A stretch of 64,000 bases of DNA from Pseudomonas wenzhouensis. Lineage in GTDB: Bacteria > Pseudomonadota > Gammaproteobacteria > Pseudomonadales > Pseudomonadaceae. The stretch covers positions 3,038,001 through 3,102,000 of the forward strand of contig NZ_CP072610.1 of assembly GCF_021029445.1 (NCBI RefSeq), written 5' to 3'. A program made the translations under genes and the position numbers. Shown here in pieces: positions 4,412 through 39,725 of the stretch (the stretch's first letter is position 1; the number at the start of each line of letters is the position of its first letter). The notes under the pieces were generated by a model. It ran no database searches, had not been told where the DNA came from, and worked only from the letters and a program-made list of their open reading frames with translations.

Positions 4412-4422
4412 AGGACTCTCCC

Positions 4423-4947
4423 ATGACGCGCCCACTGCACCTGATTGCCCTGCTGCTCTGCCTGCTCGCACCGAGCGCCTTCGCCGAACGCCTGTACCAG
4501 GTCGAACTGCTGGTATTCCGCCAGGCCGGGGATGCGGTCATCGCACCGAAAATCGCGCCGGACGACTGGGCCGGCACCGCCCTGCCAATCGCCGGCAGCG
4601 AACGCCCCACCAGTCTCGATAATGAAGCCGCCAAACTCAATCCGGGCAACGGCTATCAGGTGCTGCTGCACAAGGCCTGGAGCCAGACACTGAGCAGCAC
4701 GCCAAGCCGCGTCGCGGTCAGCAGTGGCGAGGCGCACCTGGGCCACTATCCGGTCGAAGGCACCCTCGCCTTCACCCAGGATCGCTTTGCCGATCTGGAT
4801 CTGGAACTGTGGATCAATCGCTTCAGCGCTGACGGTCTGCTGGAAAGCAGCGAGCACATGAAAGTCGCCCAGCGCCTGAAGGACAACAGCCTGACCTATC
4901 TGGATCATGGCAGCCTGGGCGCACTGGTACGCATCAGCCCGCTTTGA
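4423..4947 (+). CDS. CsiV-family exported protein
   Basis: A 174-residue protein with a clear signal peptide (LIALLLCLLAPSAFA followed by E) and the N-terminal YQVELLVFRQ pattern of the CsiV family (Pfam PF10972, peptidoglycan-associated proteins described in Shewanella). It is the PA3003 equivalent immediately after mfd, 11 nt downstream with a GGA-type ribosome site, and is convergent with nagZ. In Pseudomonas its role is unproven. The sequence shows no catalytic motif, so periplasmic binding or a structural role is the inference. Confidence 0.75.
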   Translation: MTRPLHLIALLLCLLAPSAFAERLYQVELLVFRQAGDAVIAPKIAPDDWAGTALPIAGSERPTSLDNEAAKLNPGNGYQVLLHKAWSQTLSSTPSRVAVSSGEAHLGHYPVEGTLAFTQDRFADLDLELWINRFSADGLLESSEHMKVAQRLKDNSLTYLDHGSLGALVRISPL

Positions 4948-4970
4948 GCGAGCCGCTTACGCTTATTGCC

Positions 4971-5969: not shown

Positions 5970-5980
5970 GAAGCTATTCC

Positions 5981-6508
5981 TTATTTGAAATCCTGGTTTG
6001 CCGCCCACTGCGAACACGGCGCCTCATCGATGCGCACCTTGCAGTGATGCGGGACGCGGTCGAAGAGCATCAGCATGTCCGCGTTACGCAAACGGATGCA
6101 GCCATGGGACAACGGCTCGCCCATGGGTTCCGTATCCGGCGTGCCATGCAGATAGATGTAGCGGCGGAAGGTATCGACCTCACCCATACGGTTGCGCCCG
6201 GGCTCGAGACCGCTTAGCCAGAGAATGCGGGTGAGAATCCAGTCGCGGCCTGGAAACTGCTCATGCAACTGCGGCGACCAGACCTCGCCCGTCCAGCGAC
6301 GGCCGCGCAGCACCGCAGCCACAGGCAAACCGGCGCCAATCCTCGCGCGCACCTGATGCAGCCCACGCGGCGTACAGCCCGAGCCGTTACGCTCACCGGG
6401 GCCATTGAGTGCAGTGGAAACGGGCAGACGCAACTTCAGTTGCCCGCCAGTGAAACCGTAGAGCGCCTGATCGGCGATGGAGATATGCAGGAGATCGAGT
6501 TCGGCCAT
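5981..6508 (-). CDS. YkuD-fold L,D-transpeptidase/L,D-carboxypeptidase without signal peptide
   Basis: A 175-residue protein with the YkuD catalytic signature YLHGTPDTEP...SHGCIRLRNAD, including the nucleophile Cys and its His. The N-terminus (MAELDLLHISIADQALYGF) has no signal sequence or membrane segment, so the protein is predicted to be cytosolic, unlike classical periplasmic L,D-transpeptidases. It lies directly upstream of nagZ, a peptidoglycan-recycling gene, with an 11-nt gap. ElsL of Acinetobacter is a known cytosolic YkuD protein acting as an L,D-carboxypeptidase in recycling; by analogy this enzyme may trim the terminal D-Ala of recycled tetrapeptides. That activity is inference; the fold assignment is firm. 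Confidence 0.85.
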   Translation of the reverse strand: MAELDLLHISIADQALYGFTGGQLKLRLPVSTALNGPGERNGSGCTPRGLHQVRARIGAGLPVAAVLRGRRWTGEVWSPQLHEQFPGRDWILTRILWLSGLEPGRNRMGEVDTFRRYIYLHGTPDTEPMGEPLSHGCIRLRNADMLMLFDRVPHHCKVRIDEAPCSQWAANQDFK

Positions 6509-6557
6509 GGGCCGCTAGCTTAGCCGAAGGCTGCACCCAAGCCCACCGGCTGATCGC

Positions 6558-7265
6558 TCAGACCTTGGGTGCCGTGCCTGGCGTCTTGCTGCGCGGCTTG
6601 AGTTGCGCAGTGGCCAGCGCCGGGTCGTTGACCCCGGTTTCCGAACGCATACCGGCTGCCAGGAACGGCACCATCATGCGCATCACCTGCTCGATCGAGG
6701 TGTTGACGCCGAAATCCGTCTCCGCCATGGCGCGCAAGGCCTTGATCCCGGACATGCTGAAGGCTGCCGCCCCCAGCATGAAGTGCACGCGCCAGAACAG
6801 TTCCAGCGGCGGAATGCGCGGCGCCGCCTCATGCACCAGCAGCATGTAGCGGCGGAACACCTTGCCGTAAACTTCTTCCAGGTATTTACGCAGATGCCCC
6901 TGGCTCTGACTGAACGCCAGACCGAGCAGACGCATGAAGATCGACAGGTCATTGCCACTGCGAGGCTTCACCGCCAGCGCCTGCTCGACCAGCAACTCCA
7001 GCAACTCCTCCAGCGAGAACTGCGTGTCGGACTTGGCCTGACGACGATCCAGTTCTTTCTCAAGGCTGGCGCAAAATGGCCCGAGAAAACGCGAGAAGAC
7101 AGCCTGAATCAGCGCCTTCTTCGAACCGAAGTGGTAATTGACGGCTGCCAGATTGACCCCAGCCTTGCTGGTAATCAGACGCAGCGAGGTCTCTGCGAAG
7201 CCTTTTTCCGCGAACAGCTGTTCCGCAGCATCGAGAATGCGTTCAACGGTTTCCGACTGAGCCAT
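6558..7265 (-). CDS. psrA: TetR-family regulator PsrA
   Basis: A 235-residue TetR-type transcription factor. The N-terminal helix-turn-helix ([22 protein letters not shown]...[21 protein letters not shown]) is almost textbook PsrA, the Pseudomonas sensor of long-chain fatty acyl signals controlling fadBA, rpoS and its own gene. The C-terminal ~150 residues form the ligand and dimer domain. It is divergent from lexA, as in P. aeruginosa (PA3006/PA3007). Two palindromes resembling the known PsrA operator lie just upstream (7280-7306), consistent with autoregulation. The fadBA operon, a classical target, lies 5.3 kb away in this window. Confidence 0.93.
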
Positions 7266-7279
7266 GAGTTCTCACCTGA

Positions 7280-7306
7280 CAAACACTCGTTTGAAACATA
7301 CGTTTC
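7280..7306. promoter_or_regulatory. Two abutting PsrA-like operators upstream of psrA
   Basis: CAAAC-ACTC-GTTTG at 7280-7293 abuts GAAAC-ATAC-GTTTC at 7293-7306; they share the base G7293. Both fit the published PsrA consensus [G/C]AAAC-N2-4-GTTT[G/C]. They lie 15-41 nt before the psrA start codon, where binding would block the gene's own transcription. Confidence 0.75.
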
Positions 7307-7449
7307 AGCCTGCTTGATTGTCAAGCCGCATGAGCCGTCTTTTGGCTGGCCGGTCACAGCTAACAGCAAGCAAAGACGCCGATTACCCGCAACAGGTAAC
7401 ACAGCAAACGGCATAGGCTTGAAAAATGGTCGTTGCCAAGCACTCTTTA

Positions 7450-7484
7450 CTGTATATAATTCCAGTCACTGTATAAAAAGACAG
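7450..7484. promoter_or_regulatory. Two LexA (SOS) boxes upstream of lexA
   Basis: CTGTATATAATTCCAG at 7450-7465 and CTGTATAAAAAGACAG at 7469-7484 both fit CTG-N10-CAG, separated by 3 nt. The second ends 9 nt before the lexA ATG. Tandem boxes at lexA are typical of gammaproteobacteria and imply tight SOS autoregulation of lexA-sulA. Confidence 0.93.
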
Positions 7485-7493
7485 AGCCCAGCC

Positions 7494-8108
7494 ATGCTGA
7501 AACTGACGCCACGCCAAGCCGAGATTCTCGCTTTCATCAAACGCTGCCTGGAAGACAACGGCTACCCTCCCACCCGTGCGGAAATCGCTCAGGAACTGGG
7601 GTTCAAGTCACCCAACGCCGCAGAAGAACACCTCAAGGCCCTCGCCCGCAAGGGTGCCATCGAGATGACGCCAGGCGCTTCGCGCGGCATCCGCATTCCC
7701 GGCTTCGAAACTGGCGCAGCAAACGAGGACGAAGGCCTGCCGGTGATTGGCCGCGTCGCAGCCGGCGCGCCGATTCTCGCCCAGCAACACGTCGAGGAAT
7801 CCTGCCAGATCAACCCCGCCTTCTTTCAACCCAAAGCCGACTATCTGTTGCGCGTACGCGGCATGAGCATGAAGGACATCGGTATTTTCGATGGTGATCT
7901 GCTCGCCGTACACACCACCCGCGAAGCACGCAACGGCCAGATCGTCGTCGCCCGTATCGATGACGAAGTGACGGTCAAACGTTTCAAACGCGAGGGCAAC
8001 AAGGTCTGGCTGATTGCCGAAAATCCCGAGTTTGCCCCGATCGAAGTGGACCTGGAACACCAGGATCTGATCATCGAAGGTTTGAGTGTCGGTGTAATCC
8101 GCCGCTGA
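7494..8108 (+). CDS. lexA: SOS repressor LexA
   Basis: A 204-residue repressor/autoprotease of the SOS regulon. The N-terminal winged helix [28 protein letters not shown] is followed by the cleavage site AAGAP (Ala-Gly), the catalytic Ser in GMSMKDIGI and the catalytic Lys in [11 protein letters not shown]. The open frame extends far upstream, but the start at 7494 gives the universal LexA N-terminus and sits just after the two LexA boxes. It is followed 9 nt later by sulA, forming the Pseudomonas lexA-sulA operon. Confidence 0.98.
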
Positions 8109-8117
8109 GGAAACGCC

Positions 8118-8591
8118 ATGCACATGCAGCAGTCGTTCGAGCGCCCACAACTCCCACTTTTCGACGCGTTCCTTGGCCGAACGCCTGAAGAGCCGCTGCT
8201 AGCCACAAATGATATCCCGCGTGGCGAGGATGATCAGACGTTCAGTGAACTGGCTCTGCGTGGTGCCGCCGGCCACTGCCTGCACCTGCTGGCGCCGATT
8301 CTGCGTGAGCTGAGCCAGAATCAGGATGCACGCTGGCTGACCCTGGTGGCGCCACCCGCCAGCCTCACACAAAGCTGGCTACGCGATGCCGGCCTGAATC
8401 GTGAACGCATCCTACTGCTGCAGCCGCGACAAGGGCAAAGCGCTCTGGAGCTGGCTGAGGAGGCACTCAAACTGGGCCGCAGCCATACTGTGGTCAGTTG
8501 GCTGCATCCGGTCGAGCACAGCACGCGCCAACGCCTGGCGCACGCCGCCAATCTCGGCAGCGCGCAAAGCCTGAATATCAGCCTGGGCTAA
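8118..8591 (+). CDS. sulA: SOS cell-division inhibitor SulA
   Basis: A 157-residue homologue of SulA, which binds FtsZ and blocks septation during DNA damage. Recognisable segments are FSELALRGAAGHCLHLLAPILRELS, WLTLVAPP and the RILLLQPRQG...HTVVSWLHP RecA-like core. It is placed directly after lexA (9-nt gap), so it should be induced through the LexA boxes at 7450-7484. A strong intrinsic terminator follows at 8611. An alternative in-frame ATG two codons in (8124) is equally possible. Confidence 0.92.
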   Translation: MHMQQSFERPQLPLFDAFLGRTPEEPLLATNDIPRGEDDQTFSELALRGAAGHCLHLLAPILRELSQNQDARWLTLVAPPASLTQSWLRDAGLNRERILLLQPRQGQSALELAEEALKLGRSHTVVSWLHPVEHSTRQRLAHAANLGSAQSLNISLG

Positions 8592-8610
8592 AGGTGCATT
8601 CTCGCAAATA

Positions 8611-8639
8611 AAAACGGGGCTCCACTGGAGCCCCGTTTT
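8611..8639. terminator. Bidirectional intrinsic terminator between sulA and the small convergent gene
   Basis: AAAACGGGGCTCC-ACT-GGAGCCCCGTTTT is a perfect stem with A-tract and T-tract on both sides. It can terminate lexA-sulA rightward and the 8659-8895 gene leftward. Confidence 0.93.
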
Positions 8640-8658
8640 GCTTTGTGCCGTAGCAACG

Positions 8659-8895
8659 TCAGTGCAGGACGCGCGGCCCTTCTTCCTCGCTGCTGAAATC
8701 ACCTTCAGCCATGCGACCGGCCATCTGCACGCCGACATTGAGCATGGCCTTGGCCACTTCAATATGCTGGCCCTGCAGGAACGCCTTGGCATCGGCGGAG
8801 AAATCCAGAGTCACCAGTGCCTCTTCATCCTCTGCACGGCGCAGGGCAATACGCCCATCGGGCAGTTCGACGATTTCCAGAAAGGATGTAGGCAT
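8659..8895 (-). CDS. Small conserved acidic Pseudomonas protein (PA3009-like)
   Basis: A 78-residue acidic protein beginning MPTSFLEIVELPDGRIALRR, with a beta-rich start and a helical middle (FLQGQHIEVAKAMLNVGVQMAG). The position between sulA and the PA3010-like gene is conserved in Pseudomonas. No known catalytic motif, signal peptide or membrane segment is visible, so it is probably cytosolic. Function unknown. Codon use and conserved placement support a real gene. Confidence 0.8.
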   Translation of the reverse strand: MPTSFLEIVELPDGRIALRRAEDEEALVTLDFSADAKAFLQGQHIEVAKAMLNVGVQMAGRMAEGDFSSEEEGPRVLH

Positions 8896-8975
8896 GGCTC
8901 AGTCTCTGTGCAAAAACACGACATTGTAACAGTCCGCTGAGGTCATCCCCAGCCCACTGGTCCAGTTAAACCCAA

Positions 8976-9494
8976 TCAGCACTCGCTGAGCCCTTCACGG
9001 AAGCGCAATACCAGGGCCTTGAGCTGCTGGCGCCAGGCATCGATATCATCGAGGCTCAACTCGACTGGCTCCTCGCCAACACTGACGGCCGTGATCAAGG
9101 GCATGGATGGGTCGACCTTGGCCTTGCGCTCCTCACGCGGCGGCTGGAACAGCGCAGCATAGGCGGCCAGCAACTCGGCCAGCCAGGTCTCACGCTGCTG
9201 CGCCAACTCGACCAGTTCAGCCAGCTCAGGGCTGGGCGAACCCTCGAGTACCGCCTGCTGCACGAAGGCCTCGACACGCGAAGGCGCGGCATCGCTCATG
9301 CGGTAGTAGCCAGCGATCTCGTGACACAACCCGAGCAGGCCGCCGTACAGGTGAAACAGTGCGGCCTCGCGCTCGGCCTGCACCAGCGCCTGAACATTGA
9401 ACGCGGAGGACGCCTCGGCCTTGCGCCAGTTATCCAGGGCAATACCGGCGAAGAAAATCTTCTGATTGGTACGGGTGTAGATTTCTTTGGCCAT
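8976..9494 (-). CDS. Conserved protein of the PA3010 type (DUF6586-like)
   Basis: A 172-residue, largely helical cytosolic protein (MAKEIYTRTNQKIFFAGIALDNW). The start at 9494 has a strong GGAGG site 8 nt upstream; a 10-residue longer frame lacks one. A Glu/Arg-rich C-terminus (DDIDAWRQQLKALVLRFREG) suggests a helical-bundle protein. No catalytic motif is seen. Its place between the PA3009-like gene and topA is conserved. The DUF assignment is from memory; the function is unknown. Confidence 0.82.
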   Translation of the reverse strand: MAKEIYTRTNQKIFFAGIALDNWRKAEASSAFNVQALVQAEREAALFHLYGGLLGLCHEIAGYYRMSDAAPSRVEAFVQQAVLEGSPSPELAELVELAQQRETWLAELLAAYAALFQPPREERKAKVDPSMPLITAVSVGEEPVELSLDDIDAWRQQLKALVLRFREGLSEC

Positions 9495-9575
9495 TACGGC
9501 GACCTCCACAGCAGACCGGGTCATGATACGCGCGTCGCACCAAAGTCAGACGCGCTTCTCGTCAGAGCGCAGAGA

Positions 9576-12182
9576 TCAGCGCTTGTCTTCGACCTTCCAC
9601 TTGCCGCCATCGTAGAACGCGCGCCAGCCGGTCGGCTTGCCATCGACCTCGGACTGCACGTACTGCTCCTTGGTCTTGCGGCTGTAGCGAATCACGGCCG
9701 GACGCCCATCCGGATCCTTCTGCGGGGCATCGCAGAGGAAGTGGTACTTGGGATCGATCTCATGCTTGTGCGGGACGATTTCCAGTACCAGCGGCGCACG
9801 CGTCTCACGGTTCTTAGGGAACTGGCTGGCAGCGAGGAACAGGCCCGATGCGCCGTCGCGCAGCACGTAGGTGTCGTCCACCTTCTCGCATCTGAGTTCG
9901 GGCATCTCCACCTTGTCCATCTTCGGCGGCGCCGCTTCACCGTTCTTGAGCAACTTGCGGGTGTTCTTGCAACTGGCATTGGTGCAACCGAAGAACTTGC
10001 CGAAACGGCCGGTCTTGAGCTGCATCTGGCTGCCGCACTTGTCGCACTCCAGGCTCGGCCCCTCATAGCCCTTGATGCGGTACTGGCCCTGCTCGATCTC
10101 GTAGCCGGTGCAATCGGGGTTATTGCCACAGATGTGCAACTTGCGGGTTTCATCCAGCAGGTAGGCATCCATGGCGGTAGCGCAGATCGGGCAGCGATGC
10201 TTGCCGAGCAGTACCAGAGACTCGGACTCACCCTCGTCATCGGCGGCGATCTCATCGCCCGGCACCAGGTTGATGGTGGCTTTGCAGCGCTCCTTCGGCG
10301 GCAGCGCATAGCCGGAACAGCCGAGGAACACGCCAGTGGAGGCGGTGCGGATCATCATCGGCCGACCGCAGTCACGGCAGGGAATGTCGGTCAGGGTCGG
10401 CTGGTTGGCGCGCATGCCGCCCTCGCCTGCTTCGGCGGCCTCAAGCTTCTTCTTGAAGTCACCGTAGAACTCATCGAGCAGGTGCTTCCACTCACGCTCG
10501 CCCTGGGCCACATCATCGAGATGCTCTTCCATGGTGGCGGTGAAGCTGTAGTCCATCAGGTTGGCGAAGCTCTCGTCGAGACGCTCGGTGACGATGTCGC
10601 CCATCTTCTCGGCATAGAAACGACGGTTGTGCACCGTGACGTAGCCGCGATCCTGGATGGTGGAAATGATCGCCGCGTAGGTGGATGGGCGACCGATACC
10701 GCGCTTTTCCAGTTCCTTGACCAGGCTGGCTTCGGAGTAGCGCGCCGGCGGCTTGGTGAAGTGCTGGCTGGGATCGAGCTGGATCAGCTTGAGGCCCTCG
10801 CCCTCTTTCATTTCCGGCAGGACATCGTCCTCGCCTGGCTTGCTCTGCTGTGGCAGCACGCGGGTGTAACCGTCGAACTTGAGGATACGCCCCTTGGCAC
10901 GCAGCTCGAACGAGCCGGCGGCGACAGTCACGCTGGTGGACAGGTATTCGGCCGGCGGCATCTGGCAGGCGACGAACTGGCGCCAGATCAGGTCATACAG
11001 GCGCTCGGCGTCACGTTCCATGCCGGACAGCTGGGTCGGACGCAGGTTGACGTCGGACGGACGAATCGCTTCGTGCGCCTCCTGCGCGCCTTCCTTGCTC
11101 GAATACTGATTCGGCTTGCCCGGCAGGTACTGGTCGCCGTACTCACTGCCGATGAAGCCACGCACCATCTCCACCGCGTCGTTGGACAGGTTGGTCGAGT
11201 CGGTACGCATATAGGTGATGTAGCCGGCCTCGTAGAGACGCTGGGCCATCATCATGGTTTTCTTCACGCCGAAGCCCAGGCGGTTGCTCGCGGCCTGCTG
11301 CAGGGTGGAGGTGATGAAAGGCGCCGAAGGCTTGCTGCTGGTCGGACGGTCTTCGCGCTTGACCACGCTGTAGCTGGACGCCTTGAGCTTCTCCAGCGCG
11401 GCCATGGCCTGTGCTTCGTTGACCGGCTTGAAGGCAGCACCGCCTTCGCGCACCACCTCGAAGCGCACCTTGGCGTTCTTCGCGGTGCCGAGATCGGCGT
11501 GCACTTCCCAGTATTCTTCCGGAACGAAGGCGCGGATTTCTTTCTCGCGCGCCACCACCAGCTTCACCGCCACCGACTGCACGCGACCGGCAGACAGCCC
11601 ACGGGCAATCTTGGCCCACAGCAGCGGCGAGACCATGTAGCCCACCACGCGGTCGAGGAAGCGCCGCGCCTGCTGGGCGTTGACGCGGTTGATATCCAGC
11701 TCGCCCGGCCTGGAGAAGGCTTCCTGAATCGCCTTCTTGGTGATCTCGTTGAACACCACGCGCTTGTAGCGGCTATCATCGCCACCGATGGATTCGCGCA
11801 GGTGCCAGGCGATGGCTTCCCCCTCGCGATCCAAGTCGGTTGCGAGATAGATGGTGTCAGCATCCTTGGCCAGGCGGCGCAGTTCTTCGATCACCTTTTC
11901 CTTGCCGGGCAGGATCTCGTACTTGGCTTTCCAGCCGTGCTCGGGATCGACACCCATGCGCGCGAATAGCTGACGCTTGGCCTTTTCCTTGGGCGACAGT
12001 GCAGGCGCCTCGGCAGCGGCCTTGCCGCGTTTGGCCGGTTCCTTGCTGGCACTTGCCGAGCCGCTGGTAGGCAGGTCACGGATGTGGCCGATGCTCGACT
12101 TCACCACGTACTGGCTGCCCAGGTACTTGTTGATGGTCTTGGCCTTGGCCGGGGATTCCACGATGACCAGCGATTTGCCCAT
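9576..12182 (-). CDS. topA: DNA topoisomerase I
   Basis: An 868-residue type IA topoisomerase relaxing negative supercoils. The Toprim domain starts at residue 1 ([19 protein letters not shown]) with its acidic triad in [15 protein letters not shown] (~116-129). The catalytic tyrosine is Tyr324 in [11 protein letters not shown]. The C-terminus carries at least three Cys4-type zinc ribbons ([19 protein letters not shown]...[17 protein letters not shown]...CTNASC) followed by basic tails. A low-complexity Ala/Lys linker at ~40-70 interrupts the Toprim domain, as in other Pseudomonas TopA. The whole reverse strand is open in another frame, which is only a codon-bias shadow. Confidence 0.98.
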
Positions 12183-31833: not shown

Positions 31834-32868
31834 ATGGAAAACCTCGGCTATACCTCGGTTCCCGCCCTGCTCAAGTACCTGCGCCAGGCCGAACAGCTCG
31901 GCCTGGACATCGACCGTGCCCTGGCCGCTGCCGGGATTGCCGCGCAGGACCTGGCCGATAATGGCAAGCGCATGCCCAGCGAGGTGCATGAGCGTCTGCT
32001 GGCGCATCTGATCGAGGTGTCTGGCGACCCTTTGTTCGGTCTGCACTCGGCGCGTTTCGTCCAGCCCGGCTCGTGGAGCGTACTCGGCTACATCGCCATG
32101 AACTGCGCCACCCTGGGTGAGGCCATGGGCCGCATCGTGCCTTACGAGAAACTGGTGGGCGACATGGGCACCAGCCGTATCGAAGCCGCCGAGGATCACG
32201 TGCGGCTGATCTGGAGCTGCCGTCATCAGGCACCGGACGTGCGCCGCCATATGGTCGAGAACGTGCTCGCCTCCTGGCTGCTGTACGCCCGCTGGATCGC
32301 CGACTCCGAACATTCGCCGCGCGAAGTCTGGTTCGAGCACGCGCAACCGGCCGCCACCGAACTGGCCGAATACCAGCAACTGTTCGGCTGCCCGGTGCGG
32401 TTCGAACAGCCCTGCAACGCCCTGCTGGTGCCGCTGGACTACCTCGGCGTGCCGCTGCGCCAGGCCGACGCCAACCTGCTGCGCACGCTGGAAGAACACG
32501 CCCTGACCCTGATGGCCGGGCTGGACGACAACGAGCCACTACCGCGCCGAGTGAAGAATGCCCTGCGCCTGCTGCTCAAGGACGGCCTGCCGCGCAAGGA
32601 ACGGGTGGCGGAAAAGTTCGACATGACCGTGCGCACCCTGCAACGACACCTGCAGCAGGCCGGCACCAGCTACCAGCAAATTCTCGACGAGCTGCGCCAG
32701 GAGCTAGCCGAGCATTACCTGCTGCGCAGCGACCTGGCGATCCAGGACATCGCCAGCTACCTGGGTTTCACCGAGTCACGCTCGTTCCACCGCAGTTTCA
32801 AGGGCTGGACCGGGCAGACGCCGGGCGAGTTTCGCGAGAGCCGGCGCCGGGACAACGCGCTGGGCTAG
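31834..32868 (+). CDS. AraC-family transcriptional regulator (PA3027-like)
   Basis: A 344-residue regulator with an N-terminal OruR/ArgR-type (Arabinose_bd) ligand domain (LLKYLRQAEQLGLDIDRALAAAGI, ISCRHQAPDVRR region) and a C-terminal double helix-turn-helix (RKERVAEKFDMTVRTLQRHLQ and IQDIASYLGFTESRSFHRSFKGWTGQTPGEFR). It is divergent from the FAD-oxidase/GlpD-like genes and probably controls them. Its stop codon shares the tetranucleotide CTAG with the stop of the convergent hvfX gene. Start at ATG 31834; the frame is open upstream without a better start. Confidence 0.93.
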   Translation: MENLGYTSVPALLKYLRQAEQLGLDIDRALAAAGIAAQDLADNGKRMPSEVHERLLAHLIEVSGDPLFGLHSARFVQPGSWSVLGYIAMNCATLGEAMGRIVPYEKLVGDMGTSRIEAAEDHVRLIWSCRHQAPDVRRHMVENVLASWLLYARWIADSEHSPREVWFEHAQPAATELAEYQQLFGCPVRFEQPCNALLVPLDYLGVPLRQADANLLRTLEEHALTLMAGLDDNEPLPRRVKNALRLLLKDGLPRKERVAEKFDMTVRTLQRHLQQAGTSYQQILDELRQELAEHYLLRSDLAIQDIASYLGFTESRSFHRSFKGWTGQTPGEFRESRRRDNALG

Positions 32869-33464
32869 CGCGATGGTCGGAAACGCCGCGCCAGCCAGTA
32901 ATCCAGGCTCAACCAGCGCCCTGCCCCGCTGAAGAACAACGCCACCAGCATCACCAGGTAGGTAGCGGCGAACTCGATGCCATTGTTCAACACCACAAAC
33001 TTGCCGCTGCCGGTCAGCCAGTCGTAATTGCCGTGCTCACGCAGAATTGCCCGCGCCCGTTCGAGCTTCTCCGCCGCCGCCAGCACGCGCTCATTGGCAA
33101 AGGGCGCGGATGGGTCGGCAATCGCCTGCCAGCCGTAGGGCCAGTGCACGGCGAAGATCGCCACCAGCATGGTGACGATCAGCGGGATGCTGATCCAGCG
33201 CACGGCAAATCCGAACAGCAGCAGGATGGCGCCACCGGCCTCGGTCAGCGCCGCCGCCCAGGCCAGCAGCTCGGAAAACGGTAGGCCGAGCCCCCAATCC
33301 GGATTGCCGAACCAGGCGGCCGTGGCGTCGATGTCCTTGAGCTTCTGCATGCCGGCCATCCAGAACACCGGCACCAGATACAGGCGCAGCAACAGCGGGC
33401 CGAGAAAATCCAGGCGCCGGCTAGCCTCCAGTGCATCCTGGAAGCGATTGAGCAAAGTGATCAT
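32865..33464 (-). CDS. hvfX: HvfX-type DoxX membrane protein of the RiPP operon
   Basis: A 199-residue DoxX-family integral membrane protein with about four transmembrane helices (LLLRLYLVPVFWMAGMQKL, ELLAWAAALTEAGGAILLLFGF, IPLIVTMLVAIFAVHW, FAATYLVMLVALFF) and a periplasmic loop at ~110-155. It is the last gene of the hvfABCX operon, 5 nt after hvfC. DoxX proteins of this context are annotated as helpers of copper-binding RiPP maturation or handling; their chemistry is not settled. The stop codon overlaps that of the convergent AraC gene within CTAG. It could also be a redox partner feeding the MNIO enzyme, which is inference. Confidence 0.9.
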   Translation of the reverse strand: MITLLNRFQDALEASRRLDFLGPLLLRLYLVPVFWMAGMQKLKDIDATAAWFGNPDWGLGLPFSELLAWAAALTEAGGAILLLFGFAVRWISIPLIVTMLVAIFAVHWPYGWQAIADPSAPFANERVLAAAEKLERARAILREHGNYDWLTGSGKFVVLNNGIEFAATYLVMLVALFFSGAGRWLSLDYWLARRFRPSR

Positions 33465-33469
33465 GGCGG

Positions 33470-34180
33470 TCAGTCCTCGGAAAACGGAAACCAGATATCG
33501 CGCGCCTGCCAGTCATCCAGCAGCGCGCGGGCGTTAGCGAAATAATTGCGATCAGCGGCCAGGCCATGGGCCGTGGCCAACTCCAGCTGCGCCTGCACAG
33601 CTGGCTCGCCAGCCTGCAGGCGCAACGCCAGTTGATAGGCGAATGGCGCCAACTGCATGAAGCGCACCTGATCCTGACGATCACGCCAGACCAGCAGGCA
33701 GGTCGGCTCGGCCGGTGGCTGCGTCGGGCAATGATCGGCACCGATCCTCTGCACCGGCCAGCAATAGGCCAGCGGCCAGGCCAGTGGCGACCAGCCTTGC
33801 GCGGGCAACTGCGCGTCGCTGACATCCAGCGCCAGCTCGACCCACTCGTAGTGCGCCAGCTCCAGCATGAACGCTGGGTCGTCAGGCTCGGCGCGATAAC
33901 CCTGCTGCAGCCAGGCAATGAACTCCTGGCTGATCTCCAGAAAGTACGGTGTGCTCGCCCGATGCTCGGCGAAGAAGGCGCGCAGCAGCCGCTGCCAGCG
34001 CTCGGCTCCGAGAACCCCGCGCAGCACCGGAAAGGCGCCGCCGACCAGGCTGGCGACGTTGTTGAAGAACAGCTCCTCGTAGATCGCCATGCGCTCGCCG
34101 CTAATGCCCGGCAACGGCGGCTGCGCCTCGGGCCGGCGAATACGCGCGGCAAAATCGCGCTGCGATTGCACGCCTTTCAT
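33470..34180 (-). CDS. hvfC: HvfC-type DUF2063 RiPP maturation partner
   Basis: A 236-residue DUF2063 protein. N-terminal residues ~1-95 (DFAARIRRP, AIYEELFFNNVASLVGGAFPVLRGVLG, FLEISQEFIAWLQ) form the helical domain once labelled putative DNA-binding; the remainder is a beta-rich domain (HYEWVELALDVSD...LLVWRDRQDQVRFMQL). In the oxazolin/bufferin systems this protein binds the precursor leader and the DUF692 enzyme rather than DNA. Its ATG overlaps the hvfB stop (ATGA), indicating translational coupling and likely 1:1 partnership. Start fixed by that overlap; a longer open frame would extend into hvfB. Confidence 0.93.
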   Translation of the reverse strand: MKGVQSQRDFAARIRRPEAQPPLPGISGERMAIYEELFFNNVASLVGGAFPVLRGVLGAERWQRLLRAFFAEHRASTPYFLEISQEFIAWLQQGYRAEPDDPAFMLELAHYEWVELALDVSDAQLPAQGWSPLAWPLAYCWPVQRIGADHCPTQPPAEPTCLLVWRDRQDQVRFMQLAPFAYQLALRLQAGEPAVQAQLELATAHGLAADRNYFANARALLDDWQARDIWFPFSED

Positions 34181-35019
34181 GTGCCGTATCTGCTCAGCGG
34201 TTGCGCAGCCTGCTGCAGGCTGCGGATATGCGCCAGCTCGGCATACAGCTCGGTCAGCGGCGGGAAGTTGAAGTCGCGCTCCAGCAGCGTCGGGCGTACG
34301 CCATGCTGCGCATAAGCGCTGCTCAGCAGTGCCCACACCGGGTCGATCACCGGCGCGCCGTGGGTGTCGATCTTCAGGTCTACCGCCTGGTCGTAATGCC
34401 CGGCGACGTGCAGATAGGCGATGCGCTCGCTCGGCATCGCGGCGATGTAGGCCTCAGCATCGAAGCCGAAGTTCAGGCTGTTGACGTAGACGTTGTTGAC
34501 GTCGAGCAGCAGCTGGCAGTCGGCACGCTCCAGCACCGCGCGAACGAAGTCTGCCTCGTCCAGCTCGCCGGGCAGGCGCGCATAGGCCGAGACGTTCTCG
34601 ATGATCAGCGGCCGCTCCAGCACGTCCTGAACGACGCGCACGCGCTCGGCGATGCGCAGCACCGACTCTTCGGAAAACGGCAGCGGCATCAGGTCATACA
34701 GTTGCCCCTCGTCGGCACAGGCCGACAGGTGCTCGCTGTAGGCCAGCACACCATGCTCGTCGAGAAAGCCCTTGATGGCGTGCAACAACTCCAGATTCAG
34801 CGGCGCGAAGCCGCCAAGATTGAGGGACAGACCATGGCACAGCAACGGCCGACGCTCACTCAGAGCACGCAGTTGCTTGCCCAACCGGCCACCGACACCG
34901 ATCCAGTTCTCCAGCGCCACTTCGAGAAAGTCGGCGCCGCTGGCCTCATCGCCGATCAGCTCAGCGAGCAGTCCGCGACGCAGGCCGAGACCGGCGCCGG
35001 TGAGGTTTACGAGGTGCAT
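34177..35019 (-). CDS. hvfB: HvfB-type DUF692 multinuclear non-heme iron oxidative (MNIO) RiPP enzyme
   Basis: A 280-residue TIM-barrel DUF692 enzyme. Metal-ligand-bearing segments visible in order are HGLSLNLGG, YSEHLSACAD, PLIIENVSAY, LLLDVNNVYVN, LHVAGHYD and DTHGAPV, the standard His/Asp/Glu set for two or three iron ions. MNIO enzymes oxidatively convert precursor cysteines to oxazolone/thioamide or 5-thiooxazole groups that bind copper. It follows the precursor gene by 20 nt and overlaps hvfC. Start at 35019 (MHLVNLTGAGLGLRRG) matches the family; a longer frame to 35079 would run into the precursor stop. Confidence 0.95.
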   Translation of the reverse strand: MHLVNLTGAGLGLRRGLLAELIGDEASGADFLEVALENWIGVGGRLGKQLRALSERRPLLCHGLSLNLGGFAPLNLELLHAIKGFLDEHGVLAYSEHLSACADEGQLYDLMPLPFSEESVLRIAERVRVVQDVLERPLIIENVSAYARLPGELDEADFVRAVLERADCQLLLDVNNVYVNSLNFGFDAEAYIAAMPSERIAYLHVAGHYDQAVDLKIDTHGAPVIDPVWALLSSAYAQHGVRPTLLERDFNFPPLTELYAELAHIRSLQQAAQPLSRYGT

Positions 35020-35039
35020 GATCCGCCCTACCCTCGCCC

Positions 35040-35333
35040 TTACTCGCTCTTCTCGCCGCCGCACTTGCCTTCGCCGCATTTACCCTCGGCATCGGCCTTC
35101 TTCTCGGCACCACACTTGCCCTCGCCGCACTTACCTTCCTTGTCGGCTTTCATCTCGCCACCGCATTTTCCTTCGCCACAAGAACCTTCCTGAGCCTTTT
35201 CGGCAGCAGCCAGGCTGTAGCCGCTGGCCAGTTCCTGCGCAGCGAAGGGGTTGCTCGCGGCATGGGCAGTGAACGCCATGGAAGTCAGCAGCGCAGCGCC
35301 CAGGGTGGCAGTCAGGGTATTGAGTTGTTTCAT
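35040..35333 (-). CDS. hvfA: HvfA/bufferin-type RiPP precursor with six EG[SK]CG motifs
   Basis: A 97-residue precursor. Residues 1-26 are a Sec signal peptide (LTATLGAALLTSMAFTAHA, then A-S-N), unusual for RiPPs but typical of this family. Residues ~27-48 (NPFAAQELASGYSLAAAEKAQ) form a leader/spacer. The core, residues 49-97, is three 17-residue repeats, each starting with two adjoining motifs (EGSCG EGKCG; EGKCG EGKCG; EGKCG EGKCG), with cysteines at 52, 57, 69, 74, 86 and 91. EGKCG is the motif modified by DUF692 enzymes. The start has GGAG 8 nt upstream. It is the first gene of a four-gene operon and presumably yields a periplasmic copper-binding peptide; metal identity is inference. Confidence 0.93.
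   Translation of the reverse strand: MKQLNTLTATLGAALLTSMAFTAHAASNPFAAQELASGYSLAAAEKAQEGSCGEGKCGGEMKADKEGKCGEGKCGAEKKADAEGKCGEGKCGGEKSE
35043..35189 (-). repeat. In-frame 51-nt tandem repeats coding the RiPP core
   Basis: Codons 49-65, 66-82 and 83-97 of hvfA are three successive 51-nt units (the last shortened to 45 nt), alike at both protein and DNA level. Each codes two EGxCG motifs followed by a Lys/Glu/Ala spacer. Unit number could vary between strains by slippage or unequal recombination. Confidence 0.88.
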
Positions 35334-35383
35334 GGCATATCTCCATCAGTTTCGAATACGACGCCAGGTTGGCGCCCTCGCAG

Positions 35384-35414
35384 CAATTGACGAGGCAGAG
35401 ATGCGGGCGTTACA
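35384..35414 (-). promoter_or_regulatory. Candidate ECF-sigma promoter of hvfABCX
   Basis: On the minus strand TGTAAC (35414-35409), a 16-nt spacer and CGTC (35392-35389) form a typical ECF-type -35/-10 pair, about 55 nt before the hvfA start codon. It resembles the GTAAC-N16-CGAA sites known for Caulobacter SigF, whose regulon includes related DUF692 clusters. An ECF sigma gene lies 2.6 kb upstream. No transcript data are available, so this is a prediction. Confidence 0.5.
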
Positions 35415-35435
35415 GCGGGCGAAAAAAGTTTTTCG

Positions 35436-35456
35436 CAGCCCGGATGAAATCCGGGA
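35436..35456. repeat. Single REP unit upstream of hvfA
   Basis: CAGCCCGGATGAAATCCGGG is one arm of the REP family seen as pairs at 26545, 28418 and 55639. It sits ~105 bp upstream of hvfA, just before the candidate promoter. Confidence 0.65.
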
Positions 35457-35577
35457 GCGCTTTGCCCGCTACTAGTCGCGGCTACGACTGCATGGATGCA
35501 GGAGGTAGAGCGAAGCAGGATGCCAGAGCCGAAAGCCCCTCCCACAGGCACAGGAACATTCACCGCACCGTGGGAGG

Positions 35578-35746
35578 CGCTGAAGGGCACCTCTAGAAAC
35601 TACCTGCGTTGCCATCGCTGCGTTAAAAACAGGCTCAGAATGCTCATTTACAACACGTAAACCCGAATGCGGGCCCAGCGCCTTCTTCGCCTGTTTGTGC
35701 CTTGCGCTGACTGCCTCGCCTACGTTTTTAGAGGCGCCCTTCAGCG
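35578..35746. mobile_element. MITE-like 169-bp inverted-repeat element
   Basis: The outer ends CGCTGAAGGGCACCTCTAGA (35578-) and, on the other strand, CGCTGAAGGGCGCCTCTAAA (from 35746 inward) are near-perfect terminal inverted repeats. The similarity continues imperfectly inward to GTTAAAAACAGGC / CACAAACAGGC, giving arms of about 57 nt around a 54-nt centre. No coding capacity. The structure fits a miniature inverted-repeat element mobilised by a transposase elsewhere. It lies in the regulatory spacer of the RiPP operon. Confidence 0.65.
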
Positions 35747-35768
35747 GCGAGTCTTTCGATAACCATTA

Positions 35769-35808
35769 GCCCGAACAGCCAGCGCAAACGGTGGATGAAA
35801 AAAGCGTC
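35769..35808. repeat. Left copy of 40-bp direct repeat flanking the IS/PIN-like island
   Basis: Starts GCCCGAACAGCCAGCGCAAA and runs to GAAAAAAGCGTC. It matches 37593-37632 at 37 of 40 positions. The last part with the next 7 nt forms a perfect hairpin GGTGGATGA/TCATCCACC at 35790-35815, a common Pseudomonas intergenic repeat type. Confidence 0.75.
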
Positions 35809-36077
35809 ATCCACCCTATGCGCTGCAGCTCGGTATCGACCGTTGATGTCGACACGTTCCCTCGCGTGCCTTGCACCTTTCCAGTGCCTTTGTGTATACG
35901 TATCCAGTAGTAATGAAAGCGTGAAGTTTGAAGGTCAAGCGAATACGCGCTGGCGCATGCTTCACGCTCTAAGTCATTGAAAGGTTTAAATTTCCCTGAG
36001 TTTAAAGCTGTCATTTTTCGGAGTTATACCGCCTTCCATACTATTGGATTAGCACGGAAGACTATCTAATCACTGCT

Positions 36078-36368
36078 ATGTTTGAGGAAGAATTTGGGCA
36101 TCTGACTATGAACTCTCATTTGGTAACGCAGCGGCCAACTATCTATGCTGACATGAACGTTTTTCGGTACGTCGCTTGTGGTGATATTTCCTTTGTCGAT
36201 CCGGAACGTTTCATTTGGGTTTATTCGCACGTCCACCTCGATGAGATATGTCGAAACGGTAATACCGATGCTCTAGACGGCATGAGAGCGCTGAAAGCCG
36301 TTGAAGTTTGTGATGTCCTGAATGAGCATTTCCAGTCTGCAGGGGACATTAGGGAAGGTCTGAAGTAG
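36078..36368 (+). pseudogene. 5' fragment of a PIN-like/unknown gene truncated by IS insertion
   Basis: An open frame of 96 codons. The first ~91 codons (ADMNVFRYVACGDISFVDPE, YSHVHLDEICRNGNTDALDG) look like the N-terminus of a PIN-like nuclease family protein with the early Asp (YADMNVF). The frame then enters the left end of the IS at 36352, and the final residues R-E-G-L-K and the TAG stop come from IS DNA. The remainder is not found beyond the IS. Base composition is clearly more A/T-rich than the surrounding core genes, which supports acquisition by transfer. PIN assignment is tentative. Confidence 0.6.
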
Positions 36369-37545
36369 CCCTGTATTTCCGGTCAACTTCAGCCCTCGCT
36401 GCTTTTGAAAGCGGGCCGTCGATCAAAATCGACCAGGTAACCCGCTCAGTTCTCCGTTTTTGGCCGCCGCGAGCACCTCGCAGCAGCCATTTTCCGCATT
36501 ACAGGCGTACCTCTCCTGCGGTAGTCAGCAAATGTCGGCGCGCCATCCATAGGTTCGACAGCGCGAACAGCGTCACCAGTTGAGCGGTGTTCTTGGCCAG
36601 GCCACGGAAGCGCACCTTCACGCAACCGAACTGGCGCTTGATCACTCGAAACGGGTGCTCGACCTTCGCTCGCACTTGTGCCTTGGCCTTCTCGATCTTG
36701 CGCTTGGCTTTGTACAGGGCGCTGCGTTTATCGAGCTTCTTGTAGGTGCTGCGGCGTGCTGCGACCTGCCAGATCACTTCGCGGCCAGCATGTTCGGGGC
36801 GCTTTTCGACGCCGGTGTAGCCGGCATCGGCGCAGACGACGTTCTCGTCACCGTGCAGCAGTTTGTCGACCTGGGTGATATCCGCCACGTTGGCTGCCGT
36901 GCCTACCACGCTGTGTACCAGCCCCGACTCATCATCCACGCCGATGTGCGCCTTCATGCCGAAGTAGTACTGATTGCCCTTCTTGGTCTGGTGCATCTCC
37001 GGGTCCCGCTTGCCGTCCTTGTTCTTGGTCGAGCTCGGTGCGTTGATCAGCGTGGCGTCGACGATCGTGCCTTGCCGCAGAAAGAGACCGCGGTCGCCCA
37101 GGTAGCCATTGATGACGGCCAAGATTCCTGCCGCCAGCTCGTGTTTTTCCAGCAACCGCCGGAAGTTGAGAATGGTTGTTTCGTCAGGGATGCGCTCCAG
37201 GCTCAAGCCCGCAAACTGGCGCAGAATGGTGGTCTCATAAAGCGCCTCTTCCATCGCCGGGTCGCTGTAGCCGAACCAGTTCTGCATCAGATGGACACGC
37301 AGCATCGCTATCAGCGGATAGGCTGGCCGGCCACCGTCACCCTTGGGGTAGTGAGGCTCGATCAGCGCAATCAAGCCCTTCCATGGCACCACCCGATCCA
37401 TCTCGATCAGGAACAGCTCCTTGCGGGTCTGCTTGCGCTTACCTGCGTACTCGGCGTCGGCGAAGGTCATCTGCTTCATCGGGATACTCGGGCAACGGAA
37501 TCGGCGTATTTCACCAGAAACGGGGAGTCTTCTTCAGGGTTTCCC
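36352..37545. mobile_element. IS5-family insertion sequence (~1194 bp)
   Basis: The ends read GGGAAGGTCTGAAGTAG (36352-) and, on the other strand from 37545, GGGAAACCCTGAAGAAG: 13 of 17 matching positions. One transposase gene fills the element on the minus strand. Flanking tetranucleotides are TTAG/CTAA rather than a direct YTAR duplication, so no clean target duplication is visible. Confidence 0.85.
36499..37479 (-). CDS. IS5-family transposase
   Basis: A 326-residue DDE transposase, apparently full length. The N-terminal DUF772-type helical domain (TFADAEYAGKRKQTRKELFL, YPLIAMLRVHLMQNWFGYSD, LRQFAGLSLERIPDETTILNF) precedes the catalytic core with first Asp in GTIVDATLINAPSSTK, second Asp in VVCADAGYTGVEKR and Glu in RAKVEHPFRVIKRQFG. 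No frameshift or stop, so it may be active. It points leftward, same direction as the RiPP operon 1.2 kb downstream. Confidence 0.95.
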   Translation of the reverse strand: MKQMTFADAEYAGKRKQTRKELFLIEMDRVVPWKGLIALIEPHYPKGDGGRPAYPLIAMLRVHLMQNWFGYSDPAMEEALYETTILRQFAGLSLERIPDETTILNFRRLLEKHELAAGILAVINGYLGDRGLFLRQGTIVDATLINAPSSTKNKDGKRDPEMHQTKKGNQYYFGMKAHIGVDDESGLVHSVVGTAANVADITQVDKLLHGDENVVCADAGYTGVEKRPEHAGREVIWQVAARRSTYKKLDKRSALYKAKRKIEKAKAQVRAKVEHPFRVIKRQFGCVKVRFRGLAKNTAQLVTLFALSNLWMARRHLLTTAGEVRL

Positions 37546-37592
37546 TAACAATGCAGGAAAAGAGGACAGATTTATTTATGGCACAGCAAGCA

Positions 37593-37632
37593 ACCCGAAC
37601 AACCACCGCAAACGGTGGATGAAAAAAGCGTC
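37593..37632. repeat. Right copy of 40-bp direct repeat flanking the island
   Basis: Starts ACCCGAACAACCACCGCAAA and ends GAAAAAAGCGTC. Partner of 35769-35808. The two copies bracket 1.8 kb containing the truncated gene and the IS, so homologous recombination between them could insert or delete that island. Confidence 0.75.
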
Positions 37633-37696
37633 GGCTACGCGCCCCGATCCACCCTACGCCTGAGAACGCAACCAAGCCGTCCAGCAAGCACACGGC

Positions 37697-37930
37697 TCAC
37701 CCCTGATTACGCCGATCCTGCGCCAGGCGCTCGGCCAGGGCGTCGAGTTCGGGTAACTCCTCATCCGGCATCTGCCGGATCACCGCCTGGGTCAGTTTCA
37801 TCTGGCGGATAAAACGCCGGCAGTTGCCGCACATGGCTAGGTGCGCGCGTACGGCCAGGCGCTGGCGCAGGGTCAGTTGGCCGTCGAGATAATCGCTGGA
37901 ATGAGCGACCAATTCCTTGCAGGTCAGCAT
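37697..37930 (-). CDS. zf-HC2 anti-sigma factor (short, soluble)
   Basis: A 77-residue zinc-finger anti-sigma (ZAS-like) protein: early Cys-Lys (LTCKELVAHSSDYLDG) and the H-x3-C-x2-C motif in RAHLAMCGNCRRF. There is no transmembrane helix after the finger, so it should act in the cytosol, possibly sensing redox or metal directly through its thiolates. Its start overlaps the sigma factor's end by 7 nt, the usual sigma/anti-sigma coupling. It lies upstream of the hvf operon and in the same orientation. Confidence 0.92.
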   Translation of the reverse strand: MLTCKELVAHSSDYLDGQLTLRQRLAVRAHLAMCGNCRRFIRQMKLTQAVIRQMPDEELPELDALAERLAQDRRNQG

Positions 37931-38526
37931 TGGCCTGTCTCCTCGAAATGTTCCAGGGTGGCAAAGACTTTCAGGCGTGCCCGGTGCAGCAGCACACGGG
38001 CATTGGAGAGCGAGATGTCGAGAAGATTACAGATCGCCTCCAACTCCAGGCCCTGACGCTCGCGCAGTACCAGCACGCTGGCCTGCAACTCGGACAGGCT
38101 GGCCAGGGTGTGCTCCAGGCACTCGCGCAATTCGTCTTCGGTGAGCAGGGCTTCGGGGCTGTCCTGATGCCAGGCATGTGGCGCCAGCAGCCAGTGGCCG
38201 TCATCGGAGAAACGCTCTTCGCCTACCGTGCCATGGGGCGCGGCCAGGTCGTCGAGCAGTACCTCGCGACGGTTGTGCTTGAGACGGGTCTTGGCGGTGT
38301 TGGCGGTGATGGTCAGCAGCCAGGTCTTGAGGCTGGCGCGGCCTTGAAAACCTGCCAGGTTGCGCACCACGGCGAACCAGGCATCCTGCACCACCTCATC
38401 GGCATGGCGGCTGCCGACGATGGCGTAGGCCACCGCCCGCATCGCACCCTGATAACGAGCCACCAGCTCGCGGTAGGCCTTTTGCTCGCCGGCGAGCAGG
38501 CGGCCCAAGAGATCGGAATCGGACAT
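37924..38526 (-). CDS. ECF-type RNA polymerase sigma factor
   Basis: A 200-residue sigma factor with region 2 (LLAGEQKAYRELVARYQGAMRAVAY, EVVQDAWFAVVRNLAGFQG, LKTWLLTITANTAKTR) and region 4 (LASLSELQASVLVLRERQGLELEAICNLLDISLSNARVLLHRARLKV). The start MSDSDLLGRLL at 38526 is preferred over an upstream ATG at 38544. Coupled to the zf-HC2 anti-sigma gene. Neighbour of a FabH-like gene, an arrangement I recall from P. aeruginosa PA3285/PA3286. Its likely regulon includes the RiPP operon downstream; that link is inference. Confidence 0.93.
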   Translation of the reverse strand: MSDSDLLGRLLAGEQKAYRELVARYQGAMRAVAYAIVGSRHADEVVQDAWFAVVRNLAGFQGRASLKTWLLTITANTAKTRLKHNRREVLLDDLAAPHGTVGEERFSDDGHWLLAPHAWHQDSPEALLTEDELRECLEHTLASLSELQASVLVLRERQGLELEAICNLLDISLSNARVLLHRARLKVFATLEHFEETGQC

Positions 38527-38597
38527 GGAACTCCCGTAGGTCAAGCCTGCGCACGAAGCCGAACGCCCCGTGCATGTCAGGCATTCCTACAGAGAGT

Positions 38598-39725
38598 TCA
38601 ACGCTTGCGCAAAATTACACTGCCGATCGAATAACCGGCACCAAAGGAGCTTAGAACACCCAGGCTGCCCGCCGGCAGATCGTCCTGGTTCTTGTGCAGG
38701 GCGATCACCGAGCCGGCCGAGCTGGTGTTGGCGTAGGTGTCGAGAATCACCGGCGCCTCGTGCGGCTCGGCGTCGCGCCCCAGCAGCTTGCGCGCGATCA
38801 GCAGGTTCATATTGAGGTTGGCCTGGTGTAGCCAGAAGCGCTTCACATCTGCGACGTTGAGCTGGTTTTCCGCCAGGTGTGCGGCGATCAGCTCAGCGAC
38901 CATCGGGCAAACGTCCTTGAACACCTTGCGGCCCTCCTGCACGAACAGTTTGTCGCGCGCGCCCACGCCCTCTTCCGCCGCGCGGTTGAGGAAGCCGAAG
39001 TTGTTGCGGATGTTGTTGGAGAACTGAGTCAGCAGCTTGGTGCCGACCACGTCGAACTGGTGCTTAGAGGTGGCCTGGTCGGCACGCTCGATGATCACGG
39101 CGGTGGCGGCATCACCGAAGATGAAGTGGCTGTCGCGGTCACGGAAGTTGAGATGGCCGGTGCAGATTTCCGGGTTGACCATCAGGATGGCGCGGGCCTG
39201 GCCGGTCTGGATTGCGGTGGTCGCGGCCTGGATGCCGAAGGTGGCCGACGAGCAGGCGACGTTCATGTCGTAGCCCCAGCCCTGAATGCCCAGCGCAGCC
39301 TGCACTTCGATGGCCACCGCCGGGTAGGCGCGCTGCAGATTCGAGCAAGCGACGATCACCCCGTCGATATCGGCAACGGTCTTGCCGGCCCTCTCCAGCG
39401 CCTGCTTGGCAGCGCCCACAGCCATCTCGCAGAGGATGCCCCACTGCTCGTTATCACGTTCGGGAATGCGCGGCACCATGCGCTGCGGGTCGAGAATGCC
39501 GTCCTTGTCGATGACGAAGCGGCTCTTGATGCCCGACGCCTTTTCGATGAAGGCCGTGCTCGATTCGCTCAGCGCCTCGACCTCGCCACGGGCGATGGCC
39601 TCGGCGTTGTCGGCGTTGAACTGCTGCACGTAGGCATTGAAGGACGCCACCAGCTCGTCGTTGGAAATGCTGTTGGCCGGGGTGTACAGGCCGGTACCAC
39701 TGATCACGACGTTATGCACGGTCAT
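38598..39725 (-). CDS. Beta-ketoacyl-ACP synthase III-like enzyme (PA3286-like)
   Basis: A 375-residue thiolase-fold condensing enzyme. The catalytic triad is visible: Cys158 in [10 protein letters not shown], His in [11 protein letters not shown] and Asn in [12 protein letters not shown]. It is longer than E. coli FabH (317), with extra N-terminal residues (~35-60). The P. aeruginosa PA3286 enzyme condenses octanoyl-CoA from beta-oxidation with malonyl-ACP, shunting degradation products back to synthesis; this is the likely role. It lies 71 nt upstream of the ECF sigma gene on the same strand. Confidence 0.9.

Follow-up and report, generated by a model that had tools for sequence, protein, structure and literature searches.

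An hvfABCX operon of Pseudomonas wenzhouensis with a conserved ECF-type promoter and its probable control by a neighbouring sigma/anti-sigma pair

A stretch of 64,000 nucleotides from Pseudomonas wenzhouensis (NZ_CP072610.1, positions 3,038,001 to 3,102,000; hereafter the window) carries the operon hvfABCX, which codes for a cysteine-rich precursor peptide, its predicted modifying proteins and a membrane protein. An earlier interpretation of this DNA from its letters and reading frames (the sequence-only reading) had recognised the four hvf genes and overlooked a gene pair for an extracytoplasmic function (ECF) sigma factor and its anti-sigma factor, an IS5 element, an ECF-type promoter and a leader hairpin. 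We conclude that this EGKCG-type operon is probably controlled by the neighbouring ECF sigma factor. We see about an even chance for the fuller proposal that this sigma factor, which is of the PA3285 type, has an MseR-like anti-sigma factor of the zinc-associated anti-sigma (ZAS) family encoded by a gene catalogued as P17, that the pair acts as a switch through which oxidants or zinc control a thiooxazole copper peptide, and that the target has kept its promoter and a newly recognised covarying leader hairpin despite insertions.

All four hvf genes lie on the minus strand. The 97-aa precursor is encoded by hvfA (35040..35333), a 280-aa MNIO (DUF692) enzyme by hvfB (34177..35019), a 236-aa DUF2063/NGO1945_C partner protein related to PDB entry 3dee by hvfC (33470..34180), and a 199-aa DoxX-family membrane protein, for which a PDB sequence search gave no significant relatives, by hvfX (32865..33464). 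The intergenic distances of 20, −4 and 5 nt are those given by the sequence-only reading, and the profile searches it had proposed confirmed a complete hvfABCX set: HvfB (PRK05409, 397.6 bits, cut-off 360), HvfC (NF050145, 270 bits, cut-off 142), HvfX (NF050144, 233.5 bits, cut-off 80) and HvfA (domain model NF050137, 73.2 bits, cut-off 19.5) all passed their NCBIfam thresholds. By its profile scores, HvfA is assignable at this family level and not to the narrower equivalog NF050188 (61 bits, cut-off 95). Of the label "bufferin/oxazolin-type", the hvf part stands and the bufferin part does not, as HvfB reached only 251.4 bits with the BufB model (cut-off 310) and a Pfam scan assigned no family to HvfA, including the DUF2282 of bufferin precursors. 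A methanobactin identity was likewise rejected (MbnB model TIGR04159, 43.9 bits, cut-off 325). HvfB is the single MNIO match in the whole genome, which forms one contig of 4.45 Mb with a completeness of 100, and its nearest named relatives among the matches listed are from P. chengduensis (97%), P. composti (96%) and Pseudomonas sp. 8Z (96%). Of 3,991 candidates, 3,203 are related to HvfA at E ≤ 0.001, and several Pseudomonas entries among the best 120 of them are already labelled "HvfA family". Because this is a large family that NCBIfam has named already, the operon itself is not new and is, judged by its profile matches, an ordinary, complete EGKCG "captophorin" operon. The earlier suggestion that the precursor's sequence and its Pseudomonas setting may not have been characterised was overstated in view of these labelled relatives and of an orthologous cluster in a P. 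aeruginosa record.

The regulatory pair is located 2.4 kb upstream of hvfA on the same strand. It consists of the ECF sigma gene (37924..38544, minus strand; 206 aa from a TTG at 38544, with an ATG at 38526), recognised by family scans, and the gene for a 77-aa zf-HC2 anti-sigma factor (37697..37930, minus strand; NF052368, 63 bits, cut-off 50), which overlap by 7 nt. They are preceded by a gene for beta-ketoacyl-ACP synthase III (KASIII, PRK07515; 38598..39725, minus strand), a steady upstream neighbour of the sigma gene. An unbroken KASIII-ECF-anti-sigma-hvf array with 95 to 595 nt between the anti-sigma gene and hvfA is present in 12 loci (L007–L011, L013–L018 and L021), and the P. aeruginosa record CP075839 (L112), where zf-HC2 is annotated, raises the total to 13. 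In these 13 of the 17 loci with the sigma gene upstream on the fetched DNA, the array runs almost straight into hvfA, and the remaining four have a larger gap. The adjacency extends from Pseudomonas to Halopseudomonas. No sigma gene was found in the fetched flanks of L004, L005, L006 and L012, and the DNA of L002 reaches only 2.7 kb beyond hvfA on its upstream side; the genomes of all five carry the sigma gene elsewhere. HvfX was not detected beside hvfABC in the Halopseudomonas-type loci L016, L017, L018 and L021, which have both the sigma and the anti-sigma gene. We take the sigma gene of L112 to be PA3285 from gene order, with OprO as PA3280 and OprP as PA3279, and the other PA numbers of this cluster are presumed on the same grounds.

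Thirteen residues (L2, C4, V8, L15, D16, R28, H30, C34, C37, R38, R39, F40 and P55) are invariant in 30 aligned anti-sigma proteins, a comparison which omitted L021, where the frame is split, and L160, which is the same place as L123. C4 together with H30-x3-C34-x2-C37 represents the pattern of the ZAS family, and as expected for that family the gene lies beside an ECF sigma gene. In MseR of Neisseria meningitidis, Cys34 is required, and Cys4 and Cys37 are to a lesser extent (PMC2893595). The protein is thus probably an MseR-like ZAS protein, and we predict that it binds zinc and inhibits the sigma factor. It scored 31.4 bits with the RsrA equivalog TIGR03988, below the cut-off of 62.5, and its closest PDB sequence is the anti-sigma factor RsiW, a weak match (E 0.0044). 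The split frame, at 6381-6649 (plus strand) of L021 from Halopseudomonas pachastrellae, is either genuine or due to an error in sequencing.

About 80 nt ahead of hvfA, at 35387..35414 on the minus strand, we found the ECF-type promoter TGTAAC-N16-CGTCAA, of the general form TGTAAC-N16-CGTCNA, which occupies the same place in the orthologues. After anchoring 18 loci on this site, TGTAA was invariant and followed by C in 17; in the second box, G was present in 17 of 18 and T, C and the final A in all, with constant spacing. Of 23 orthologue rows, 17 have a strict pattern of this site no more than 900 nt from hvfB, versus 0 of 87 other hvfB loci, some of which hold less than 900 nt of upstream DNA. 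As L083 repeats L004, L086 repeats L007 and L082 is the window itself, the rows represent 21 distinct loci, 16 of them with the strict pattern, and only one further match was present in 2.37 million strand-bases of the hvfB loci examined. The site is akin to that of Neisseria sigma-E, whose −10 box CGTCTAAH begins with CGTCTA, whereas the −35 box (GTMAGBWTT) and the spacer of 12-13 nt differ (PMC2893595). A wide regulon was rejected: the variant TGTAAC-N16-CGTCYA, which misses the window's own CGTCAA and the hvf promoter of genome G068, matches at 27 places, spread over 24 of 99 genomes, and a backward control scores higher in most genomes. Two of these places (in G077 and G008) are the hvfA promoter, and the rest lack promoter evidence. 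With one mismatch allowed, the window's own genome contains 5 places versus 35 for the control. Judged by these pattern matches, hvfA is the single target that we claim. No sigma-70-type sites were found at 35000-38800, which carries little weight since shuffled sequences average only 1.0.

In the proposed mechanism, the ECF sigma factor would start transcription at this hvfA promoter, and the cytoplasmic 77-aa ZAS protein would keep it inactive until oxidation or zinc loss sets it free. The best reading is therefore that induction would follow the release of the ZAS-held sigma factor by an oxidant or by zinc loss and perhaps not copper directly. The 4.1-5.0-fold increase of PA3282-PA3284 in a znuA mutant of strain PAO1, with no Zur site listed for them (PMC4542158), fits zinc loss from the ZAS protein. 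In Haemophilus influenzae, the 67-aa HrsE holds RpoE2, a sigma factor linked to HOCl whose control over the DoxX/DUF2063 cluster was examined in the same study (PMC7907618). A copper-stress system proper, the view of the sequence-only reading, would have excess copper as both signal and target, with copper displacing the zinc of the anti-sigma factor. We regard this as possible and rather doubtful. It draws on the binding of Cu(I) by EGKCG products (PMC13097082), on a ZAS zinc site that may be open to attack by copper, and on a DUF692 RiPP (ribosomally synthesised and post-translationally modified peptide) iModulon of P. aeruginosa, which rises with copper, hypochlorite and N-acetylglucosamine, and whose genes are not matched to this cluster (PMC9023270). 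A Microbulbifer cluster of EGKCG type, however, showed no copper response (PMC12538549), which counts against copper as the signal, and both the link of Haemophilus RpoE2 to HOCl and the response of PA3282-PA3284 to zinc shortage point away from it. A copper-buffering role of the predicted HvfA product is plausible. If the sigma/ZAS assignment is true, the inducing signal could be tested directly in Pseudomonas, on a system whose promoter is single and clear.

Several observations weigh against control by the neighbouring sigma factor. The sigma gene is present in 59 of 99 genus genomes, and only 5 of these also encode a close HvfB, one that scores over 450 bits, so that it is common without the operon (54 of the other 94 genomes); 13 of 13 inspected loci of this kind consist of KASIII, ECF and anti-sigma genes with no hvf genes nearby. 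Six orthologue rows (five distinct loci) miss the strict promoter pattern, with an altered second box. A stricter form of the pattern and its control each have a single match in the whole genome; rarity alone therefore proves little, and the argument rests on the conserved place of the site. Among the loci examined, the pattern is found ahead of the sigma gene itself only in L158, and its absence from nearly all of these loci indicates no autoregulation. Oxidants gave no meningococcal sigma-E response (PMC2893595), PvdS is predicted to control PA3285 (PMC8999054), and PA3282 and PA3283 are lowered in a mexT mutant (PMC12607905). The many genomes with the pair and without the operon, the missing pattern before the sigma gene and the mexT effect would all suit an arrangement in which operon and product are the same, but the targets of the pair are KASIII or other genes, while a copper sensor, MexT or another sigma factor acts on hvfA via the conserved site. 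We consider this unlikely, because the site resembles an ECF promoter, its CGTCTA box being identical to the first letters of the −10 box of Neisseria sigma-E, because it is confined to the hvfA genes of sigma-linked orthologues in the comparison of 23 and 87 loci given above, and because sigma array and hvf genes are adjacent in 13 loci of the two genera.

The presumed 5′ untranslated region of hvfA contains, past the −10 box and ahead of the start codon, a leader hairpin (35360..35376, minus strand) at one place common to 19 leaders. These represent 19 of 22 loci; L006, L115 and L116, whose leaders are identical to those of L005, L002 and L003, were omitted. In the alignment, 83.3% of the cells are paired, compared to 39-58% after sliding by 1-3 columns; the hairpins of L005, L014 and L016, which pair one register off, were scored as broken. 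Changes on both sides occur in 5 of 6 pairs; the covariation score was reached by none of 500 shuffles and the number of doubly changed pairs by 28 of 500. RNAalifold recovers five of the pairs, the energy of −2.35 kcal/mol being weak, and a scan of the window listed no Rfam family at this place. This is good evidence for a covarying RNA hairpin and not final, because the leader rows are related. A DNA operator for a repressor, suggested by the position of the inverted repeat near the presumed transcription start, is quite improbable, as the letters vary between species while pairing is kept, which is predicted for an RNA hairpin and not for a fixed operator.

The anti-sigma gene is covered on the same strand by the Rfam family RF01670 (Pseudomonas sRNA P17), at 37675-37920 (minus) in the window and at 7111-7392 (minus) in L112, where zf-HC2 is annotated at 7163-7402. 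P17 scores 330.4 bits in L112 and 37.0 bits in the window, the latter below the gathering score of 45, which is reached in 4 of the 7 loci given. A 15-bp terminator-like hairpin is located at the 3′ end of the P17 region in L112. Summed over 29 proteins, substitutions relative to the window amount to 446, 285 and 776 at codon positions 1, 2 and 3; this bias and the open frame indicate that the conservation of the region is that of a protein. RF01670 may be a protein gene with its terminator filed as a small RNA, and the same DNA might also give rise to a separate RNA. In a review, PA3285 (ECF293, "only certain members") is listed among the sigma factors without an anti-sigma factor (PMC8999054). 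If our assignment is true, an Rfam small-RNA family contains what is likely a protein gene, and this sigma factor gains its anti-sigma factor.

The four loci with a larger distance between anti-sigma gene and hvfA are the window (2.4 kb, 35334-37696), L003 (3.5 kb, 3200-6686), L115 (3.9 kb, 7420-11339) and L116 (4.5 kb, 5305-9775). The interval contains an IS5-family element and a short open reading frame cut by it in the window, TIR-TPR-SEC-C in L003, NERD-SEC-C in L115 and DUF3916 among others in L116, and is a small insertion hotspot of these near relatives with genes that are defence-like in look. The ISPa16/ISPpu18-like element of the window (36349..37548, minus strand, ends approximate) shares about 92% identity with plasmid-borne copies of ISPa16/ISPpu18; we looked for a target-site duplication and claim none, the ends being ambiguous. 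In this lineage, IS5 and other DNA would have parted the sigma/anti-sigma pair from the operon, while the promoter remained with hvfA, so that ECF control could work in trans. The interrupted reading frame (36078-36368, plus strand) has no Pfam match, runs into the left end of IS5 and is probably the front of a truncated gene.

The six EG[SK]CG motifs claimed for the precursor were confirmed exactly. They contain all six cysteines of HvfA, and not one of 20,000 shuffles of the protein had at least two such motifs. The N-terminus (about residues 1-25) looks like a Sec signal peptide by eye, in line with the earlier description, and is followed by NPFAAQELASGYSLA and then by three pairs of motifs; a linker NPFAxQEL-SGY is conserved. 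In HvfB, the metal ligands and Asp249 are conserved, Arg14, Arg15 and Phe250 are as in FonB, the active-site and specificity residues agree with MbnB and FonB, and a structure model has the MNIO fold; the loss of metal ligands that would have spoken against the sequence-only reading is not seen. Oxazolin from HvfABC has been revised to a 5-thiooxazole structure (PMC13097082). Because of this revision and the conserved FonB specificity residues, the predicted product of HvfB is best read as 5-thiooxazoles on the HvfA cysteines, so that of the chemistries proposed earlier (oxazolone/thioamide or thiooxazole) the second is retained in this form. In the pathway we propose, HvfC would hold HvfA, probably via the conserved linker, HvfB would turn the cysteines of the motifs into 5-thiooxazoles using an iron cluster and oxygen, Sec would export the product to the periplasm, Cu(I) would be bound there by the ring thiols, and HvfX would act in the membrane at some step.

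Among related systems, HvfABCX of H. influenzae (oxazolin), FonABC (fontiphorin) and NgoABC (gonophorin) share the EGKCG-repeat precursor, the MNIO and the DUF2063 partner with the P. wenzhouensis operon, and DoxX is found in the hvf and ngo clusters; Arg15, Arg16, Asp249 and Phe250 of FonB all have counterparts in HvfB. As differences, HvfA of P. wenzhouensis falls below the narrow equivalog cut-off, the host is another one, and the sigma pair that may be involved is of another lineage than RpoE2. The rpoE operon of Neisseria (NMB2140-2145/NGO1948-1943) also combines an ECF sigma factor, the small ZAS anti-sigma factor MseR (C4, H-x3-C-x2-C), DoxX and a three-gene cluster (PMC2893595), but there the sigma and anti-sigma genes lie behind the cluster in one autoregulated operon, whereas here they are in front and hvfA has its own promoter. 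Bufferins (Buf1 and Buf2 of Caulobacter) resemble our system in MNIO, DUF2063, DoxX and an exported cysteine peptide and differ in their DUF2282 precursors and BufB enzymes. EGKCG clusters mostly have four core genes, and sigma and NrsF anti-sigma genes are reported for Buf1 clusters and not for Buf2 (PMC12452194), NrsF taking the place of the ZAS protein found here. Pseudomonas clusters with DUF692, DUF2063 and DoxX were noted earlier as Pep1 and Pep5 (PMC8719888), and sigma control of such clusters is already known from Neisseria (PMC2893595) and Haemophilus (PMC7907618). In the open-licence literature and listings, we found no paper joining the PA3285-type sigma factor, the ZAS anti-sigma factor and the hvf operon; what we add is the proposed assignment of sigma factor, ZAS protein and promoter in Pseudomonas, along with the overlap with P17 and the hairpin in the leader.

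An AraC-family regulator gene (31834-32868, plus strand), which scores as GliR (672.7 bits), is convergent with hvfX with a 4-nt overlap. It was rejected as the operon regulator because of this orientation and because GliR was found, among the loci searched for it, only in the window, L002, L003, L115 and L116, all near relatives.

The PA3285-PA3281 region of L112 matches the window in the order of its KASIII, ECF, zf-HC2, precursor, DUF692, DUF2063 and DoxX genes and in its promoter; it differs in having a five-cysteine precursor and the terminator-like hairpin instead of an insert between the anti-sigma gene and hvfA. The record itself (CP075839.1, pPALO11) is called a P. aeruginosa plasmid and contains oprP, a second porin gene, the hvf cluster and the sigma, anti-sigma and KASIII genes in a seemingly chromosomal order, near an IS1595-like element.

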